DNA from: a virus
DNA: 31,111 nucleotides
Direction: 5' to 3' (one strand)
IMG/VR virus record: IMGVR_UViG_3300047157_000007
Location: 1-31,111 of that record
A model generated the notes under the pieces. That model did not search any database. It had not been told where the DNA came from and saw only the letters and a program-made list of their open reading frames with translations. Position 1 is the first letter of the stretch. Every line of letters begins with the position of its first letter. The translations under genes were made by a program, and so were the position numbers. Shown here one piece after another: positions 2 to 26,750 of this stretch.

Positions 2-3000
2 CTCGGTATATCTGATCGAAAGTGGAAAGATTTGCATATTGGTGGCACCGCCAACATCGGCGGGAACGCTGTTATTACTGGCGACCTAACCGTCAACGGC
101 ACTACGACCACTACGCTCAACACGGCCACGCTGGACGTTGAAGACAAGAACATTACTGTGAATGCAGGCGGCACTCATGCGTCATCTGACGGCGCTGGTC
201 TGACGATAGAGAAGGGCGAAAGTGATAGCGTAGACGCGACCATCTTGTGGGACGAATCAAGCACGACGTTCGATTTCAGCCATGCGATAAATGTCCCTAG
301 TTTAACCACTACAGGCAACGTGTCATTTGGCGACAACGACAAGGCAGTCTTCGGTGCTGGCTCTGACCTACAGATTTACCATGATGGGGCTAATAGCTAC
401 ATATCAGATGCAGGAACAGGATTGTTTCAGCTTCGCACCAACGGCACTAGAATTGAAATGGTTGGTCAAAGTGGGTCTGAATACATGGCACGTTTTGAAC
501 AAGATGGTGCTGTAAAACTTTACTACGACAACAGCCTAAAACTAGCCACAACCTCCACAGGCATCAACGTAACTGGCTCAGTGACTGCTGATGACCTGAC
601 TATCGACGGCGCTATAGTTGTTAACAGTGACACTACAACAGCCATCACAGCTACTCAAAACGCTAACACTGATGTTAACGGGTTAATGGGTATTCGCATC
701 AATAACTCTACAGGCACAACTTATGCCGCTTTTGGTAACTCAGGAGCAGATAGTGTAGCCATTACAGCAGGAGATGCTGGAGGCACAGGAAATACTTCAC
801 TTACGTTTAAAACAGCGGCTTCTGGTTCAGAAAAATCAAGATTAAGCATTGGCTCAGGCGGCGACATTAGCTTCTACGAAGACACTGGCACGACTGCAAA
901 GTTGTTCTGGGATAGTAGTGCTGAAACTTTAGCTATAGGTCATTTAAATCCTTCTAGTACTTATAGGCTTGATGTTAATGGTGCTGTTAGGTCGTTTGGT
1001 AATGCACCTAGTTACACACTAAGAGAGGATGATGCCTCTAATCAAACGTGGTTAATGGCATCGTATGGCGGCACTTTTGCAATAAGAGACACAACTGTAT
1101 CTGGGACAAGCTATCCTTTTCAGATTCAAGCGGCTACGCCAAGCAACACCTTATTACTAAACTCATCAGGCTACGCGGGTCTGGGTACAAACGCACCAGC
1201 GGCCAAGCTGGATATCGTCGATACCTCTGCTGACGTACAGATGCGCGTCTATAAGAACGACGGCACCAAGAACACACGGATTACGCTAACGGCTGACGAC
1301 AGCGGCGCTAAGATCCACTACCGAGATGCAGACAACGCAGGCGCACTAAGGTTTAACAACAACCTTGGCGAGGTCATGCGGATTCCTGCTGATACTACGC
1401 GGCTAGGAATTGGGACTAGCAGTCCGTCAGCTAGGTTAGATGTACAACAGGCAACGGCTGGAAACATAGTTTCAGCAGAGTTTGATAACACTGACTACAC
1501 GGCAAACAATCGTAATGCTATAAAAATTAGACAGCAGGTTAGTTCAAGCGGTAGCTACTCAGCATATGTAGGCTCTGATAAAAACACAGGTAACCTTTTC
1601 TTAGCTAATGACTCTATTACCGCAAACCATTTAGTTATTAACCCCTCTGGCAACGTAGGTATCAATAGTAGCATTCCAGCCGCTATGCTCGATGTAGTAA
1701 AAACTGGAGCAGGCATCCAAGACACTTTGCAACTTAGAAACGCGCAGACTTTAGCCGCAGGTGTTGGTTCATCTTTAGGCTTTGGTGATAGCGGCGGCGC
1801 TAGATTAGCTTATATCGCTGGTGCGGCAACAGGTGCTAACAATGACAACGGGTACTTGTCTTTCTACACAAGAGCTTCTGATTCTTTAGCAGAACGCATG
1901 CGCATAACAGCATCAGGTGATGTAGAAGTTAAAGGCGGTAATGAGTTAAAAGTCTATCGTGGAGACAACGCCACATACGGCTCAATGAAGTATCTCACTG
2001 GCTCTGGTGGTTTGCAGTTTAATGACCAAAACTCCGATGGCATTTCATTTGTCAGGGGAGGTTCTACTGAGAGCATGCGCCTAGATTCGAGCGGTCAGCT
2101 GTTGCTTGGTCGAGGTGCTAATGTCGCATCAGGCGCTGAAGCTACACGTATTCAGTTCTACAACACAAACAGCACTTATGACATAGCATCTATTAGAAGT
2201 TTGGTTGGTGCAGGGCAAGTAAACAGAGGCGAGCTATCTTTTGCTGTAAACAACGGTGCAGGCCAGCAGGAGAGAATAAGGCTAGATTATTCTGGCAACT
2301 TGATGGTTGGTAAGACTGACACTAGTATTGCAACGCAAGGTGTATTCTTCGGCCCTAATTATTCACACATTACATCAACCAATGATACTCCCTTAGCTTT
2401 GTCTCGTAAAAGCAGCGACGGCACTGTCTTGGATATACGCAAAGACGGCGCAAACGTAGGAAGCGTTGGCACCAAGCTATCTGATGGCGGCACAAGTGAT
2501 GGTGAGCTGTTTATAACTAGCGGAAACACTGGATTATTTTTCGATGACATTGGAAGTTATATTCGACCCTGTAATGGCTCTGCCGCTTTGCGTGACAACA
2601 CCGTTGACTTGGGCAAGTCAGATTCGCGCTTCAAAGACCTTTACCTGTCAGGCACTGCTTACGTCGCAACGTCGATAGGTATCGGCACTGCTTCTCCAGT
2701 GTATCCACTCGATCTTAGAAATCCTTCGGATTCAAACCAAGTACTTAGAGTTTTGTTCCCAGATGCTGCAACTGTACAAATTGGAACAAGTAGAATGGCA
2801 TCTGGTGCAACCCAAGGTCTTTTTGTAGAAGGCCAAACAGGTGTTAGATTTGGGGTAAGTGGTACTGAATATGGCCGTTTTCATTCAAACGGTAATTTTG
2901 GTCTTGGAACCAGCAGTCCAAGCAATAAATTATCCATTAAAGGCACTGTAGGATTTGAAGCAACTAACAGTACAAATAAATGGCTGGCCTATACCTACAC

Positions 3001-4282
3001 CGACAATACATTACGACTAAATTACAATGGTTCTGGTGCGGACGAGATAACCATCGACTCTATTGGCAATCTTCTGGTTGGTCAGACTAGCAACTCAGAA
3101 ACAGGCACAGGTATTGGTTTAGTTCCTGACGGCACTAGCCACATGTACTCGGGCAGTACTGACACCTTAATGCTTGGTCGTGGTGGCACAGACGGTGAGA
3201 TCTTAAGTTTCAATAAGTCAGGCACCACCGTGGGAAGTATTGGTAGTGATTCAGGTGTAACCATTTACATGGATGGTGGCGGTGCCAGAGCAGGTATTTA
3301 TATGTCTGGCTCTGGTGTTTTGCCACGTTACAATGGAGCATTAGCAGATAATGCTACTGACTTGGGAGCAAGCAATCGTCGCTTCAAAAACCTTTACCTG
3401 TCAGGCGGAATTAAATTAAACACCGCTAGTACAGCCGACACTATAGCAATGACTCGTGGCACTAACGGCCAAAACAATATGTTGAAGTTTGTCACGGGTA
3501 GCACCGATGACTGGATTGTAGGTCAGAGAAACGACGGTACTAGTGACTTCCGCTTTTACTCTTACGGAACATCTAGCGATGCAGTGTCTATAACTCGAAC
3601 TGGCAACTTAGGTATTGGCACTAGTTCGCCTAGTGATAAGCTAACACTAGATAGTGGGCAAATGCGTTTGTCTGACAACTACGGTATTCGTTGGGGCAGT
3701 GCTTCTACCGCAATATATGGCTCTGGCGGTGCAGGTACGCTTCAAATGTATACCAATAGCGCAGAACGCACGCGCATCGACGCATCGGGAAACCAGTTAT
3801 GGGGCAAGACCTCTGCTAACAACACGACGCAGGGCATACGCTTCTTAGGCTCATCGGGCTTTATGTCGATTGTGCGGTCTAATGCTACTGCGATAATCGT
3901 TAACCGTATTGACGGCGATGGCACTCTCATGGAGTTCCGAACCAGCGGGACGACTCGCGGCTCGATCTCTATTTCTGGCTCAACTACCTCGTACAACACC
4001 ACATCGGATCAGCGGGCTAAAGAAAACATTGTAGATGCGCCCTCTGCCTCTGATGACATTGACGCTATCAAGGTACGGTCGTTTGACTTCAAGGCTGACG
4101 GGTCACACCAGAAGTACGGCATGGTCGCGCAGGAACTAAGCACTGTCGCACCTGAAGCGGTAAGCGTCCCAGATGACGCAGAAGAGATGCAGAGTGTAGA
4201 CTACTCCAAACTTGTACCGATGATGTTGAAAGAGATTCAAACACTACGTGCGCGAGTCGCACAACTTGAAGGAGAAAACTAA
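2..4282 (+). CDS. Tail/side fibre protein with C-terminal S74 chaperone domain, 5' partial
   Basis: This is the 3' part of a long fibre gene; the reading frame is open to the left edge (LGISDRKWKDLHIGG precedes the first internal Met at 32), so the true start lies outside. The body is built of repeated beta-rich modules with recurring phrases such as LGIGTSSPS, RLDSSGQLLLG and LG-S-D-R-F-K-DLYLSG. The C-terminus carries an intramolecular chaperone/auto-peptidase domain (Peptidase_S74): TTSDQRAKENI has the Ser and Lys of the expected catalytic pair (Ser1325, Lys1330 counted from Met 32), followed by FDFKADGSHQKYGMVAQEL and a terminal coiled coil LKEIQTLRARVAQLEGEN. In this family the domain trimerises the fibre and then cleaves itself off. 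The stop overlaps the next start by one base. It probably binds the host surface. Identification of the domain is strong; receptor is unknown. Confidence 0.9.
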   Translation, partial: LGISDRKWKDLHIGGTANIGGNAVITGDLTVNGTTTTTLNTATLDVEDKNITVNAGGTHASSDGAGLTIEKGESDSVDATILWDESSTTFDFSHAINVPSLTTTGNVSFGDNDKAVFGAGSDLQIYHDGANSYISDAGTGLFQLRTNGTRIEMVGQSGSEYMARFEQDGAVKLYYDNSLKLATTSTGINVTGSVTADDLTIDGAIVVNSDTTTAITATQNANTDVNGLMGIRINNSTGTTYAAFGNSGADSVAITAGDAGGTGNTSLTFKTAASGSEKSRLSIGSGGDISFYEDTGTTAKLFWDSSAETLAIGHLNPSSTYRLDVNGAVRSFGNAPSYTLREDDASNQTWLMASYGGTFAIRDTTVSGTSYPFQIQAATPSNTLLLNSSGYAGLGTNAPAAKLDIVDTSADVQMRVYKNDGTKNTRITLTADDSGAKIHYRDADNAGALRFNNNLGEVMRIPADTTRLGIGTSSPSARLDVQQATAGNIVSAEFDNTDYTANNRNAIKIRQQVSSSGSYSAYVGSDKNTGNLFLANDSITANHLVINPSGNVGINSSIPAAMLDVVKTGAGIQDTLQLRNAQTLAAGVGSSLGFGDSGGARLAYIAGAATGANNDNGYLSFYTRASDSLAERMRITASGDVEVKGGNELKVYRGDNATYGSMKYLTGSGGLQFNDQNSDGISFVRGGSTESMRLDSSGQLLLGRGANVASGAEATRIQFYNTNSTYDIASIRSLVGAGQVNRGELSFAVNNGAGQQERIRLDYSGNLMVGKTDTSIATQGVFFGPNYSHITSTNDTPLALSRKSSDGTVLDIRKDGANVGSVGTKLSDGGTSDGELFITSGNTGLFFDDIGSYIRPCNGSAALRDNTVDLGKSDSRFKDLYLSGTAYVATSIGIGTASPVYPLDLRNPSDSNQVLRVLFPDAATVQIGTSRMASGATQGLFVEGQTGVRFGVSGTEYGRFHSNGNFGLGTSSPSNKLSIKGTVGFEATNSTNKWLAYTYTDNTLRLNYNGSGADEITIDSIGNLLVGQTSNSETGTGIGLVPDGTSHMYSGSTDTLMLGRGGTDGEILSFNKSGTTVGSIGSDSGVTIYMDGGGARAGIYMSGSGVLPRYNGALADNATDLGASNRRFKNLYLSGGIKLNTASTADTIAMTRGTNGQNNMLKFVTGSTDDWIVGQRNDGTSDFRFYSYGTSSDAVSITRTGNLGIGTSSPSDKLTLDSGQMRLSDNYGIRWGSASTAIYGSGGAGTLQMYTNSAERTRIDASGNQLWGKTSANNTTQGIRFLGSSGFMSIVRSNATAIIVNRIDGDGTLMEFRTSGTTRGSISISGSTTSYNTTSDQRAKENIVDAPSASDDIDAIKVRSFDFKADGSHQKYGMVAQELSTVAPEAVSVPDDAEEMQSVDYSKLVPMMLKEIQTLRARVAQLEGEN

Positions 4283-11258: not shown

Positions 11259-11605
11259 AAACAAGACTTGAAGAAATGCGTGAGCAGTGTGTTGCGTTCC
11301 ATCACAAGCATCCCGAGGTTTGGGATTTGTTTAAACAATTCAGCTTCGCAATGATAAACAGGGGCTTTCAAAACTATAGCGCCAAAGCAATTTTTGAACG
11401 CATTCGCTGGGAAAAAGACGCGGGTGGTGATGGCATAACTAGCTTCAAGGTTGGCAACAATCACCCTGCTTTTTACGCTCGTGCATTTATGCGCAAGTAT
11501 CCACAGCATGAGGGGTTTTTTAGACTGCGAGAGCAAAAGTCGGCAAAAGACCCTGCGACTAATAAGCCTGAACCGACTCCGCAGGATTACGAATATGTTC
11601 GGTGA
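11255..11605 (+). CDS. Conserved phage protein of the replication/recombination module
   Basis: A 116-residue basic protein with the recognisable series HPEVWDLFKQFSFAMINRGFQNYSAKAIFERIRWE, followed by FKVGNNHPAFYARAFMRKYPQHEGFFRLREQ. This arrangement is common in phages next to ninB-type and endonuclease genes and is usually left without a function. ATGA overlap with the preceding gene. The aromatic and basic content fits nucleic acid binding, which is inference. Confidence 0.7.
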   Translation: MKTRLEEMREQCVAFHHKHPEVWDLFKQFSFAMINRGFQNYSAKAIFERIRWEKDAGGDGITSFKVGNNHPAFYARAFMRKYPQHEGFFRLREQKSAKDPATNKPEPTPQDYEYVR

Positions 11606-12035
11606 GTTCTGGCTGATAAAAGATCCAATCGAAATCAAAGACCGCATGGAAGCCTTCAAGAAATTTCTTGAAACGGAATGGTGCTGGGAAAAACCTGTAG
11701 CGTGGCAGGTAAAGGAGTACAAGCCACGTCGCTCGCTTAGTCAAAACGACCTTTTCCATGTGTGGGTAAGGGACATGACTCGGCACTTTAAAAAGCGAGG
11801 CGGGTTTACGGGTACAGAAGACGATCTAAAGCTCATGCTGAAGTATAAGTTTCTTGGAACCGAAGACGTTGAGGTGGGCAAAACAACTATACCCGCACAG
11901 GTACGCGGCACTTCGACGCTAGACAGGGGAGAAATGCTATACTTTATGACACAAGTGGAGGCTTGGGCCATTGACTTAGGGGTCAAACTCACAAAGCCTC
12001 AAAATTCGGAGTATGCAAAAAACTGGGGGGGGTAG
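11595..12035 (+). CDS. NinB-like recombination protein
   Basis: A 146-residue protein starting MFGEFWLIKDPIEIKDRMEAFKKFLET. The start at 11595 is chosen because the longer frame upstream to 11451 only shadows the previous gene. PRRSLSQNDLFHVWVRDMTRHF and STLDRGEMLYFMTQVEAWAIDLGVKL follow the NinB/Orf pattern (Q-N-x-x-x-H or -x-W near the middle, S/T-T-x-L-x-x-x-E-M near the end). Lambda Orf binds single-stranded DNA and SSB and helps load recombinases, which would fit the annealing protein and SSB-like protein encoded upstream. Confidence 0.65.
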   Translation: MFGEFWLIKDPIEIKDRMEAFKKFLETEWCWEKPVAWQVKEYKPRRSLSQNDLFHVWVRDMTRHFKKRGGFTGTEDDLKLMLKYKFLGTEDVEVGKTTIPAQVRGTSTLDRGEMLYFMTQVEAWAIDLGVKLTKPQNSEYAKNWGG

Positions 12036-12037
12036 GC

Positions 12038-13198
12038 ATGAGCCTATTGCAGTTTTGCAAAACCGAAAGGCAGAGAGAAGTTGTCGGCCGAGTAGAAGAA
12101 GGCCAGAGCCAGCGAGATATAGCTAGAGAGATGGGCTTAGGTCGCGGCACTGTAAGAGGGCACCTTGAAGCGGTTAGGGCAGTAGCCGCGAAACAAGGAT
12201 ACAGCCCCGAGCATGACTACACGCACCCCGTCCCTTCTGGGTACACGGTTAAGGGTGTCTCAAGTCTATACAACGACGAAGGGAAACTTGTCTCACAGTG
12301 GGTCAAGAGTCAGTCGGACGCAGAGCATGCACTACAAGTTGCACTTGACCACTTTAAAGCTGGGCTTAAAGACGAGTTGCAGGGACTTGCAAAGCCTGTA
12401 AAGAAAAGCAAAGCCAAGAAGCAGAAAGACCGCATGGCCGTCACCATCGTTGGAGACCATCACCTTGGGATGCTGGCATGGTCACCCGAAACAGGTAGCG
12501 ACCCTTGGGATTTGCAGATAGCGCAAGACACACTCATTAAGGGCGTCGATAAGCTCATGGAGAGCACAGGCGATTGCTCTGTAGGCGTTTTGCTAAATGT
12601 CGGCGACATGATTCACGCTAATAACTTAAAAGGCGAGACGGGCGCAGGAACAGCCTTGGACGTAGACGGCAGAGCAGGCAAGACGATACGCGCCGCAGGC
12701 AACCTATTCCAGATTATCGTGACCCGTATGCTTCAGCAGTATGATGAGGTATGGCTAATCAACGCTCGCGGTAACCACGACCCTGACGCCTCTCTGTGGC
12801 TAAACGAAATGCTCCGCATGTACTATGAGAAAGACAAGCGCGTGAAGGTGTTCGACAACTTCAGCAAGTTCATCCACTTTGAATGGGGCAATAACTTTGT
12901 GATTACGCATCACGGCGACAAGATACGCACTCGCCAACTGTATGAGGCAATCACACGCGACTATGCGCAGGAGTGGGGGCGCACAAAGTATCGCTTTGCA
13001 TGGACAGGTCATATCCACCATAAGCAATCAGAAGAGCTAGGCGGGCTTACGTGGGAGAGCTGGTCCGTACTCCCGCCTCCAGATTCTTGGCACTCAGGTG
13101 CTGGCTATGGCTCACAGCGGTCGATTAGTTGTGTAGTATTAGACAAAGAGCACGGCGAGTTCAGCCGATTCAAGGTCGGTATCGAGGCACTACAGTGA
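12038..13198 (+). CDS. HTH-metallophosphoesterase fusion (calcineurin-like)
   Basis: A 386-residue protein in two parts. Residues 1-50 carry a helix-turn-helix (GQSQRDIAREMGLGRGTVRGHLEAVR), like the DNA-reading part of resolvases and response regulators. After a Lys-rich linker (about 117-132), residues 133-386 form a metallophosphoesterase with all five motif blocks: GDHH (139-142), GDMIH (189-193), GNHD (245-248), HHGD (291-294), GHIHH (324-328). These hold two metal ions, as in Mre11/SbcD nucleases and DNA phosphatases. A run of G precedes the ATG. The DNA-binding part suggests a nuclease acting on phage or host DNA; its true substrate is unknown. Confidence 0.85.
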   Translation: MSLLQFCKTERQREVVGRVEEGQSQRDIAREMGLGRGTVRGHLEAVRAVAAKQGYSPEHDYTHPVPSGYTVKGVSSLYNDEGKLVSQWVKSQSDAEHALQVALDHFKAGLKDELQGLAKPVKKSKAKKQKDRMAVTIVGDHHLGMLAWSPETGSDPWDLQIAQDTLIKGVDKLMESTGDCSVGVLLNVGDMIHANNLKGETGAGTALDVDGRAGKTIRAAGNLFQIIVTRMLQQYDEVWLINARGNHDPDASLWLNEMLRMYYEKDKRVKVFDNFSKFIHFEWGNNFVITHHGDKIRTRQLYEAITRDYAQEWGRTKYRFAWTGHIHHKQSEELGGLTWESWSVLPPPDSWHSGAGYGSQRSISCVVLDKEHGEFSRFKVGIEALQ

Positions 13199-22386: not shown

Positions 22387-22788
22387 ATGGCTACACATAA
22401 AGGCTCAAGCGGTGTCGTAAAGGTTGCCGCTAGTGGTGGTTCAGAAGCGGCAGTTGGCGAGGTTCGCTCGTACTCTATTGATGAGACAGCAGACACTATT
22501 GAGGACACCGTAATGGGTGACTCAGTTAAGTCATACCTATCTAGCCTTAAAGACGCCACACTCACAATCGACGCATTGTGGGACGACGCAGACGCACAGC
22601 ACTTGGTGCTTGATTCTGGCGCGGCTATCGACTGGGAAATCCACCCAACAGGAACAGGCACAGGCGAGAAGTATTACGCAGGCGCAGGAATCGTGACTGC
22701 TAAAACTATCTCAGCGTCATACGATGGTCTTGTTGAGGCGTCCTTCTCTGTGCAAGTATCAGGCGCAGTTACAGAAGCGGCTAACTAA
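22387..22788 (+). CDS. Major tail tube protein
   Basis: A 133-residue beta-rich protein: HKGSSGVVKVAASGGSEAAVGEVRSYSIDETADTIEDTVMGDSVKSYLSSLKDATLTIDALWDDADAQHLVLDSGAAIDWEIHPTG..., the typical tube fold in which 'V-G-E-V-xx-Y-S-I-xx-T-ADTIEDT-xMGD' is a familiar signature. GGGAG precedes the ATG. It forms stacked hexameric rings around the tape measure. The stop overlaps the next start by one base. Confidence 0.87.
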   Translation: MATHKGSSGVVKVAASGGSEAAVGEVRSYSIDETADTIEDTVMGDSVKSYLSSLKDATLTIDALWDDADAQHLVLDSGAAIDWEIHPTGTGTGEKYYAGAGIVTAKTISASYDGLVEASFSVQVSGAVTEAAN

Positions 22789-23135
22789 TGGGTCTCGCTA
22801 AAGAATTGCGGGCGCGTCGTAAAGGCTCGCGCCGCAAAATTAGCGTTGCAGAATGGGGGGACGGTGACGGCGATTTCGTTTTGTTCTGTCGCCCCCTTAC
22901 CTGCTATGACCTTAATGAGTTGCAGAAGCGCCACCCTCAAGTAATGCAAAACCCTAGCATTGCCGCAATGGTTGACCTGATCCTTATGAAAGCTGAGAGC
23001 AAGGATGGTGAAAAGCTGTTTACCTCGGCTGAAGATCGCATGGACTTAATGGGGGAGGAGACAACCGTTGTCTCTCATATTGCCAACGAGATGTTTGGCA
23101 CTATCGAGGGGTTTGAGGATGTCGAAAAAAACTAA
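22788..23135 (+). CDS. Tail assembly chaperone, short (G-like) form
   Basis: A 115-residue protein between tube and tape measure genes: MGLAKELRARRKGSRRKISVAEWGDGDGDFVLFCRPLTCYDLNELQKRHPQVMQNPSIAAMVDLILMKAESKDGEKLFTSAEDRMDLMGEETTVVSHIANEMFG. The phrases D-F-V-L-F-C-R-P-L-T-xx-D and D-xx-G-E-KLF-T-xx-D are characteristic of such chaperones. It ends in a slippery sequence (see next). In lambda the short form coats the tape measure while the long form recruits tube protein. Confidence 0.85.
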   Translation: MGLAKELRARRKGSRRKISVAEWGDGDGDFVLFCRPLTCYDLNELQKRHPQVMQNPSIAAMVDLILMKAESKDGEKLFTSAEDRMDLMGEETTVVSHIANEMFGTIEGFEDVEKN

Positions 23136-23281
23136 AGTCCGATCAGTCTCGGATGAACTTAATTGCCTTGGCTGATCGGTTACACAAGACCATTGAAGAA
23201 GTAGAGCAGATTTCGGTTACTGAGTTCCATGAGTGGCTCGCTTACTTCAAGATCATGAGCGAGTCGAAAGATGGCAACTGA
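22788..23281 (+). CDS. Tail assembly chaperone, frameshifted (G-T-like) form
   Basis: A -1 frameshift in A AAA AAC (23126-23132) joins the 115-residue short form to 49 more codons (23132-23281), giving about 164 residues. The added part reads LKSDQSRMNLIALADRLHKT, then IEEVEQISVTEFHEWLAYFK and IMSESKDGN. 'I-S-x-x-E-F-x-E-W-x-A-Y-F' is the usual T-domain end. The extension ends 11 bases inside the tape measure gene, exactly as in lambda-like phages. The bases between 23136 and 23270 would otherwise be an unexplained gap in a tightly packed operon. Confidence 0.82.
23126..23179 (+). promoter_or_regulatory. -1 ribosomal frameshift signal
   Basis: The slippery heptamer A AAA AAC (23126-23132) stands directly before the zero-frame TAA. 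After a six-base spacer, CCGATCAG (23139-23146) pairs perfectly with CTGATCGG (23172-23179), closing a 25-base loop that could also form a pseudoknot. The arrangement is the textbook slippery site plus downstream stimulator. Confidence 0.82.
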
Positions 23282-25139
23282 AACCGTAAGCATCGTCATT
23301 AAGGCGTTTGACCAAACGCAAAAAGCCTTGCGTGGTATCAAGGCCGCATTTGGCAAGCTCTCTAAGGTATTCTTTAGCTTTAAGACCGCGCTAGTTGCCG
23401 CAGTAGGCGCTGGCGGTCTTGGTCTGCTCATCAGTCAGTCTCTTAAGTCGATTGACGCTCTAGCCAAAACGTCTAGCAGGATAGGTACGACTACCGACGC
23501 CTTATCCAAACTGCAATATGCTGGGTCACTTGCGGGCATTGAAACAAACACGCTCAACATGGCTATGCAACGCTTTGTTCGCCGTACTGCGGAAGCGGCA
23601 AACGGCACAGGCGAGGCAGTTAGCGCCTTCAGAAGGCTACGATTAGACGCAGAAAAACTACAGCAAGTGCCTCTTGATGAGCGCATGAAGTTGCTGGCAG
23701 AGTCATTTAAAAACCTAAAAAGTGAAGAAGAAAAGCTGGCAGTTGCGTTTAAGCTTTTTGACTCTGAAGGTACTGCTGTCATTAACATGCTTAAGCAGAC
23801 TGGCGATGAGATGGATGCTGTCTTTAAAGAGGCAGAACAGCTTGGGTTGGTCTTATCAGAAGACACAGCGCAGGGCGTTGAGGACGCAAATGACGCCTTC
23901 ACTAGACTCAGAGGTTTGTTCCGTGGGACGGTTCTACAAATTACGGGTGCGGTTGCGCCTGCTTTAGAGGCTCTATTTACACACCTTAAGAACGTAAAGC
24001 TTGAAGCTTTGGAAGGCACTGGCGGAGTCGAAGGCTTTGCAAAAGCCATAGTCGAAAAGTTCCTGTCTGCTGTGCGCTCAATGATTGTTGGCATATCACA
24101 AATACACACTGCCTTTAACAATTTGTTATTTGACCTCAATGTAGCCATTTTCGATTTCCGCCGCATATTCGGTCTTGACGGGTTAGATGAGTCAGAGCAA
24201 AAAATCAAAGAAAAAATAATAGCTATAAATAACTCGCTTATGGCTATAGAAAAGTTTGGTGAGAAAAAAGCAGGCCGAGCTGTTGATACGCTTAGAGCGT
24301 TAGGTCTTCCGACCGTTGAAGAAGCAAAGGCTGAACTGCTTCGGCTTGTTGCAGAAAACGAAGCTGTCATGGCAAGGCTACAGCGGCCTATAAGACCTGA
24401 TCCGCCAGATTATTCTGAGTGGCTTGCCACGTTTGACCGCCTCATTGCTGGCATTGAAGAAAAAACCGATTCAGTGAAAAGCGCAATGGAAGAGGTTACT
24501 GTCACTGCGCAAAAGCCTTGGTATATGCCATTCATCAATGGCGTAAAAATGTTTGGCAACTCACTCGATGAGCTGGTCAATGAAAAGCTACCTGACCTAA
24601 AGCAGATGGTAGATAGTTTCGCCCTGCAAACAATGAACAACTTTACACAGGCATTTGTCGACGGTGTGACGGGTGCTAAGTCATTTGGTGAGGCAATCAG
24701 AAACTTAGCTAAAAGCGTTGTTGATTCCCTAATTAAGATGCTCGTTCAGTATTACATTACTAAGCCTCTGTTTGACGCAATTAGCGGCGGCATTTCAAGT
24801 GCGTTTCCTACGGCCAGTGGTGGTGGCGGTGGTGGTGGCATGGGCATGCAAGGATTAGCCCGTGGCGGTGTTGCGACAGGTGGCGCGCCTTATCTGGTTG
24901 GCGAGAAAGGGCCAGAAATATTCGTGCCAAGTACGACAGGACGCGTTGTGCCTAATGACCAGCTTGGCGGTAGCGGTGTCACCGTCGTTCAAAACATCAA
25001 CGTAACTACAGGCGTACAGCAAACCGTACGTGCTGAGATCGCTAACTTACTGCCACAGATTAGTAATGCCGCGAAGTCAGCGGTCGCAGATGCTAGAATG
25101 AGAGGCGGTGGCTTCAGTAAGGCAATGGTGGGTGCATAA
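23271..25139 (+). CDS. Tape measure protein
   Basis: A 622-residue protein that sets tail length. The N-terminus is helical with a hydrophobic stretch (KTALVAAVGAGGLGLLIS), followed by TSSRIGTTTDALSKLQYAGSLAGIETNTLNMAMQRFVRR, a hallmark of lambda/HK97-type tape measures. The C-terminal part has the Gly-rich linker SGGGGGGGMGMQGLARGGVATGGAPYLVGEKGPEIFVPS, also typical. Assuming 0.15 nm per residue, the tail would be roughly 90 nm. The ATG overlaps the chaperone extension stop by 11 bases (ATGGCAACTGA). Confidence 0.9.
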   Translation: MATETVSIVIKAFDQTQKALRGIKAAFGKLSKVFFSFKTALVAAVGAGGLGLLISQSLKSIDALAKTSSRIGTTTDALSKLQYAGSLAGIETNTLNMAMQRFVRRTAEAANGTGEAVSAFRRLRLDAEKLQQVPLDERMKLLAESFKNLKSEEEKLAVAFKLFDSEGTAVINMLKQTGDEMDAVFKEAEQLGLVLSEDTAQGVEDANDAFTRLRGLFRGTVLQITGAVAPALEALFTHLKNVKLEALEGTGGVEGFAKAIVEKFLSAVRSMIVGISQIHTAFNNLLFDLNVAIFDFRRIFGLDGLDESEQKIKEKIIAINNSLMAIEKFGEKKAGRAVDTLRALGLPTVEEAKAELLRLVAENEAVMARLQRPIRPDPPDYSEWLATFDRLIAGIEEKTDSVKSAMEEVTVTAQKPWYMPFINGVKMFGNSLDELVNEKLPDLKQMVDSFALQTMNNFTQAFVDGVTGAKSFGEAIRNLAKSVVDSLIKMLVQYYITKPLFDAISGGISSAFPTASGGGGGGGMGMQGLARGGVATGGAPYLVGEKGPEIFVPSTTGRVVPNDQLGGSGVTVVQNINVTTGVQQTVRAEIANLLPQISNAAKSAVADARMRGGGFSKAMVGA

Positions 25140-25675: not shown

Positions 25676-26301
25676 GCAGGGTGCTATCGAGTGGGATGGA
25701 GTCGGCTGTCGAAGCCGATTTGGTGCGCCCGGTTGTATTGGTTACTTGCGCCTTTGATTCTGGTGACCTAAATCTGTGGAATGGTATCGGCACGCTTACG
25801 GTCAGCAGTGTTGACTATGTCGGCGCAGGCACCTTGCTTAATATTGGTGAGATCGCGGAGTCGTCAGAGCTACAGGCTAACGGCATCACTGTCACCTTGT
25901 CAGGCATCACCGACCCACTGCTGGCTAAGGCGCGTGACGAGGATTACCAAGGCCGTGAGCTAACTGTAAAGTTGGGAGCTATGGACGCGGCAAACGCCGT
26001 TATAACTAGCCCTGTTACCGTGTTCAGTGGCTTTATGGACACAATGGTTATTAATGACTCGTCAGAAACGGCGACCATTCAGGTCAATGTTGAGAATCGG
26101 CTGATTGAGTTTGAGCGCACACGCATCAGACGCTACACAGCCGAAGACCAGAAGATTGACTACCCCAATGACAAGGGGCTGGAATTCGTTGCGGAGATGG
26201 CAGAGAAGGAAATCGTGTGGGGCCGTAGCTTTGAGGGAGGCTCGGGAAGCAATGGCGTTAGAAATGATGGCGGCAGAGAAGACCCAGGAGACTTACCGTA
26301 A
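25672..26301 (+). CDS. Tail tip/hub protein (DUF2163-like)
   Basis: A 209-residue beta-rich protein: MSRVLSSGMESAVEADLVRPVVLVTCAFDSGDLNLWNGIGTLTVSSVDYVGAGTLLNIGEIAESSELQANGITVTLSGI... and ATIQVNVENRLIEFERTRIRRYTAEDQKIDYPNDKGLEFVAEMAEKEIVWGR. The 'E-S-S-E-x-x-A-x-G-xxxx-L-S-G-I' and 'F-E-R-xx-x-R-R-Y-T-xx-DQ' phrases are usual for hub proteins of gene-transfer-agent-like tails. It ends in a Gly/Ser-rich tail. ATGA overlap with the gene before. Confidence 0.75.
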   Translation: MSRVLSSGMESAVEADLVRPVVLVTCAFDSGDLNLWNGIGTLTVSSVDYVGAGTLLNIGEIAESSELQANGITVTLSGITDPLLAKARDEDYQGRELTVKLGAMDAANAVITSPVTVFSGFMDTMVINDSSETATIQVNVENRLIEFERTRIRRYTAEDQKIDYPNDKGLEFVAEMAEKEIVWGRSFEGGSGSNGVRNDGGREDPGDLP

Positions 26302-26750
26302 TGAAATTTGCAATCGAAAACTTAGCAAAAGTTAGGCGTGAAATTGAGCCTTTACTAAAGCAGCACTATGATGAGATCGCGCTCAACAAAGACATCATCA
26401 AAATGAATCCTGACTGGGAAGCGTATGCGCGGCTCGACGCCGTCAATGCGTTACGAATTTACACAGCTAGAAAAGACGATCAGTTGATGGGCTACTTTGT
26501 GGTCATCGTTAGCAAGTCGCTTCATTATCGCGACCACTTGTTTGCTAACAACGACGTTATTTTTCTGACTAAGCCTGCGCGTAAGGGGCTTACAGGCGTG
26601 AAGCTAATCAAGTACGCCATAGACTCACTAGCGGCAGAAGGCATAACCAAGCTACACGTCAACACAAAGGCGCATCAGCCATTCGACGCAATCCTTGAGC
26701 GATTGAACTTTGAAGAAATTGAGCGCGTTTACTCTTTAGTTCTGAGGTAA
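26301..26750 (+). CDS. GNAT-type acetyltransferase
   Basis: A 149-residue protein located between two tail tip genes. FVVIVSKSLHYRDHLFANNDVIFLTKPARKGLTGVKLIKYAIDSLAAEGITKLHVNTKAH and FDAILERLNFEEIERVYSLVLR show the N-acetyltransferase fold: the central strand, then 'P-xx-R-x-G-x-x-G-xx-L' as a relaxed acetyl-CoA-binding loop (R-K-G-L-T-G), then the later strand and FDAILERLNFEE, which matches the usual end 'A-x-x-L-xx-x-G-F-xx'. Such enzymes recur inside phage tail modules; substrate unknown. Confidence 0.82.
   Translation: MKFAIENLAKVRREIEPLLKQHYDEIALNKDIIKMNPDWEAYARLDAVNALRIYTARKDDQLMGYFVVIVSKSLHYRDHLFANNDVIFLTKPARKGLTGVKLIKYAIDSLAAEGITKLHVNTKAHQPFDAILERLNFEEIERVYSLVLR

Follow-up and report, generated by a model that had tools for sequence, protein, structure and literature searches.

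We report that the putative tail assembly chaperone gene of a siphovirus-like marine phage very probably undergoes programmed -1 ribosomal frameshifting of the lambda G/GT type, a reading to which we assign a probability of about 96%. The gene lies in a virus record of 31,111 bases, which is called the window here. Comparison with relatives makes a -1 frameshift, at an A AAA AAC heptamer, nearly certain; slippage itself and its efficiency in this phage we infer. An earlier, sequence-only reading had interpreted the locus as a tail assembly chaperone frameshift. This interpretation is supported by the conservation of heptamer and extension, by the predicted fold of the chaperone (G) and by a match of the extension (T) to a family of tail proteins.

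The right part of the record encodes terminase, portal, scaffold, major head protein, tail terminator, major tail protein, G and the tape measure protein. All features of the frameshift locus are on the plus strand. The major tail (tube) protein (22387–22788) was assigned by phrog_1407 and PF06199 and is the expected partner of the T domain. The open reading frame of G, whose 0-frame product has 115 residues, extends from 22788 to 23135 and ends with the stop codon TAA (23133–23135). The tape measure protein (23271–25139, starting with ATG at 23271) matches phrog_9483 (E = 2.8e-51) and Tape_meas_lam_C. The genes of the tube protein and the tape measure protein flank two adjacent open reading frames, G and T, as in the lambda-type arrangement. 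From the letters alone it had been proposed that A AAA AAC stands right before the stop codon of G, that the -1 frame stays open over 49 codons before it ends inside the tape measure gene, and that annotation leaves an apparent gap of 135 nt. All of this can be read directly from the window: the heptamer occupies 23126–23132, the -1 reading from 23132 comprises 49 sense codons followed by TGA (23279–23281), this stop lies 11 nt into the tape measure frame, and the stretch without open reading frame coverage is 23136–23270. The translated T extension (23132–23281, stop included) would give a GT fusion of approximately 164 residues. Two further observations concern the tail genes of the window. 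The gene at 32–4282 encodes a tail fibre-like protein of 1416 residues that carries an S74 chaperone peptidase domain at its C-terminus, and an acetyltransferase-like gene (phrog_1249) is found amid the tail genes at 26301–26750.

G of the window has no significant match among curated families; the Pfam search with G gave nothing significant, a PDB sequence search with the G profile gave no match, and no clear sequence similarity to lambda G was found. Relatives of G match the tail assembly chaperone families phrog_344 and phrog_16513, albeit weakly. The best PDB match of an AlphaFold model of G (pLDDT 81) was the HK97 tail assembly chaperone 2ob9 in two chains, with an E-value of 1.2e-3, a probability of 1.00 and TM-scores of 0.53–0.60. 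Sequence identity to this protein is just 16–19%, although the modeled fold is common to both. Matches in a viral structure library include several named tail assembly chaperones. Based on this model, G is predicted to carry the tail assembly chaperone fold.

The heptamer is in frame with G and adjoins the stop codon directly. Since the open reading frame 22788–23135 ends GAA AAA AAC TAA, it is in X XXY YYZ register. The number of heptamers as such is unremarkable (7 in the window vs. 5.7 expected), unlike the combination with an open frame and a stem described below. Among G homologues on viral contigs, a heptamer flush with the stop and followed by a T-like extension was present in 66 out of 66 distinct contexts. 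The flush heptamer was also found in all 157 further locus records, some of which lie on the same contigs (82 with AAAAAAC, 75 with GGGAAAC). GGGAAAC, also a valid heptamer, replaces AAAAAAC in one sister clade and occurs on a MAG contig labelled Pseudomonadales as well. A swap between valid types is a requirement of frameshifting, whereas plain coding constraint would not predict it. Of the 51 conserved codons compared in 61 unique genes, just K114 and N115 lacked any synonymous change; the other lysine codons of G prefer AAG two to one. Heptamer, flush stop and extension are retained over at least three clades, down to approximately 35% identity of G, and the stop codon itself varies among relatives (TAA, TGA or TAG). 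In phi3LM21, which falls outside these clades, the distance between heptamer and stop is 3 nt. Published sets have average slip-to-stop distances of 26 and 36 nt (PMC10885494). The zero distance and the heptamer swap between clades are mildly unusual. The heptamer had also been called canonical, which is correct in the sense of a valid site and does not extend to strength in E. coli, where A AAA AAC is a weaker slippage site than A AAA AAG (PMC5009743).

A second in-register A AAA AAC (12017), together with a run of seven G (12026), was considered and rejected. It would fuse a NinB/Orf-like open reading frame (11451–12035) to an exonuclease open reading frame (12038–13198), into which the -1 frame is open. 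The G run varies among relatives, and A AAA AAC was found in just 1 of the 17 examined. For the latter reason this heptamer is probably a chance occurrence and serves as a negative control.

A further conserved element, GAGG, is located at 23115–23118, 7 nt upstream of the heptamer and 11 nt from the AAC codon. Of 188 distinct 3' ends of G, 95% have it at this fixed place. In the same set, the glutamate six codons before the stop is encoded with a GAG:GAA ratio of 182:6 compared to 980:1023 elsewhere in G, a bias that carries no formal probability because the sequences are related. GAGG is possibly a Shine-Dalgarno-like stimulator of slippage, a role for which it makes a good candidate. Its spacing of 7 nt falls short of the range of 9–14 nt published for -1 sites (PMC5009743). 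An exact parallel to the spacing in E. coli dnaX was considered and dropped, as the dnaX sequence has 10 nt at this position. We also considered a termination-coupled variant of the G/GT system, in which the flush stop is itself part of the signal, competition with termination sets the level of slippage and the fixed GAGG tunes it. We regard this variant as rather doubtful.

The T extension shows the signature of a protein-coding sequence. Stop codons in the -1 frame of relatives had been named as an observation that would speak against the frameshift. None occurs in any of 51 unique sequences, and both other frames contain stops in every one of them. In this set the extension has a pN/pS ratio of 0.23; the ratios of the other two frames are 1.2 and 2.1. 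An alignment of T spans phages of Roseobacter, Pelagibacter, Moraxella and Sinorhizobium as well as lake phages and has a near-invariant core of A, L, W and AY. T of the window matches phrog_337, annotated as tail protein, weakly (E = 1.7e-4); the same family is matched by 19 of the 23 aligned T sequences. A PDB sequence search with the T profile returned just designed repeat proteins and other uninformative matches. Compared to CRP phages, the extension is 48–62% identical and G 34–37%. Predicted tryptic peptides within the extension of this phage are MNLIALADR and TIEEVEQISVTEFHEWLAYFK.

An ATG at 23153, 17 nt past the stop codon of G, opens a frame of 42 residues (MNLIAL...) in the register of T, which could then be a separate gene, started at this codon or by reinitiation after the stop of G. 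The ATG is kept in 52 of 66 contexts. In the other 14, however, the codon differs (TTA in seven, CTG in three, and ATT, TTG, TTT and ATA in one each), and the residues L-x-x-D-Q-S-R ahead of it are conserved as protein. Moreover, an internal start leaves the invariant codons of the heptamer unexplained. We consider a separate T gene very improbable.

Downstream of the heptamer the arms CCGATCAG (23139–23146) and CTGATCGG (23172–23179) form a stem, which was assigned from the fold and from compensatory changes. The earlier description of this element, with a spacer of 6 nt (23133–23138), perfect pairing over 8 bp and a loop of 25 nt, is accurate in every part. The fold of 60 nt has a z-score of -3.6 with respect to shuffled sequences. 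Dinucleotide shuffling of the downstream region (n = 2000) produced a suitable perfect 8-bp stem three times, an open frame of 49 codons 105 times and both together in no case. Compensatory exchanges were observed at three of the eight stem pairs (34 cells, 39 distinct sequences), and one pair occurs as A-U, G-C and C-G. The covariation score of the stem was matched by none of 500 shuffles and dropped steeply when the arms were slid. The arms are also protein-coding, so that part of this constraint is shared. Seven or eight pairs are retained in 71 of the 75 sequences of an enlarged set. The compensatory changes are seen in the window's own clade and in the sister clade, and in both the position of the conserved stem agrees with the 5–9 nt downstream that is expected for a structured stimulator. 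In the CRP roseophage clade, by contrast, the stem is not retained. Several sequences of that clade fold otherwise, and because just 1–5 of the eight pairs are kept there, the stem of the window is clade-specific. No frameshift element of Rfam was matched, and at the DNA level the region found no counterpart in the phage collection. The sequence-only reading had called the cassette complete. The elements it named are present; it had missed the conserved GAGG, and its stem belongs to only part of the group.

The heptamer overlaps a run of seven consecutive A (23125–23131) followed by C, and a G-T fusion might also originate from slippage of RNA polymerase on this run instead of slippage of the ribosome. 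Seven A are short for bacterial transcriptional slippage, though, and the sister clade with GGGAAAC has no such run. Covariation of the downstream RNA stem is a further argument against this explanation, which we rate slightly below the separate gene.

Ribosomal frameshifting is also favored by the recurrence of the arrangement in cultured phages. Isolated phages of Roseobacter and Pelagibacter share this layout, as do Mcat9, DSL-LC06 and phi3LM21. CRP-822-type roseophages and HTVC pelagiphages (PV211008–PV211014, MN698240, MN698248, MN698245, MN698246) have a homologous G (30–38% identity) or T and share the flush heptamer and the -1 T extension, which is unannotated; their downstream stem is different or weak. 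The heptamer of HTVC111P and HTVC112P is AAAAAAG. Single-base frame differences can be errors, but the notion that a single ancestral gene was split into G and T by a frameshift mutation or a sequencing error, with no joined product, is hardly credible: hundreds of independent contigs, and sequenced isolates too, show the identical architecture, and selection acts on both frames.

The deposited records of the CRP phages, HTVC026P/202P and DSL-LC06 stop the chaperone at the 0-frame stop, and the joined G-T product is absent from the deposited relatives examined. The roseophage paper describing the CRP relatives (PMC12629253) does not mention frameshifting. Gene calls over the extension differ between records. 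Those of HTVC111P and HTVC112P have a minus-strand gene call at this position; in the pelagiphage records MN698245.1 (1556–1708) and MN698246.1 (1550–1696) the minus-strand call over T is a hypothetical gene. The records of phi3LM21 and Mcat9 list the extension as a gene of its own with an internal start (MF614628.1, 1528–1638; KR093633.1, 1516–1845). With 114 residues, the extension of Mcat9 is far longer than the others.

The locus resembles lambda gpG/gpGT in the position of the chaperone gene between tube and tape measure, in an X XXY YYZ heptamer at the 3' end of this gene and in the short -1 extension that ends at the start of the tape measure gene. The lambda heptamer is GGGAAAG and lies some codons before the stop. 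Unlike lambda, the window phage has A AAA AAC directly before the stop codon and a strong, conserved downstream stem. The -1 frameshift mechanism and the binding of T to the tube are established for lambda (PMC5009743, and Levin 1993 and Xu 2004, 2013 and 2014 as cited there). For an HK97-like tail assembly chaperone cluster, a published test reported 7% frameshifting (PMC3711429). The combination of an upstream Shine-Dalgarno-like element, in the window phage a possible one, an A AAA AAx heptamer and a stem about 6 nt downstream is similar to that of E. coli dnaX, which has AGGGAG 10 nt upstream of AAAAAAG, whereas the window phage has GAGG 7 nt upstream of AAAAAAC. The dnaX shift truncates its product; the shift in the window phage would extend it.

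Based on these comparisons we propose the following mechanism. The majority of ribosomes would terminate at the TAA at 23133 and release the chaperone G. A minority would slip back by one base on A AAA AAC, with help from the stem that follows 6 nt later and perhaps from GAGG on the upstream side, and continue in the -1 frame for 49 further codons to yield G-T. By analogy with lambda, G would coat the tape measure protein, and G-T, the rarer product, would recruit the tail tube protein through its T domain.

This kind of recoding has already been described for phage lambda and its relatives; what is new is the phage lineage. For an abundant group of marine phages, the analysis confirms a recoding signal that is missing from the deposited records examined for related isolates. 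The flush stop, the heptamer swap and the clade-specific stem constitute a compact natural series for measuring the contribution of each element.
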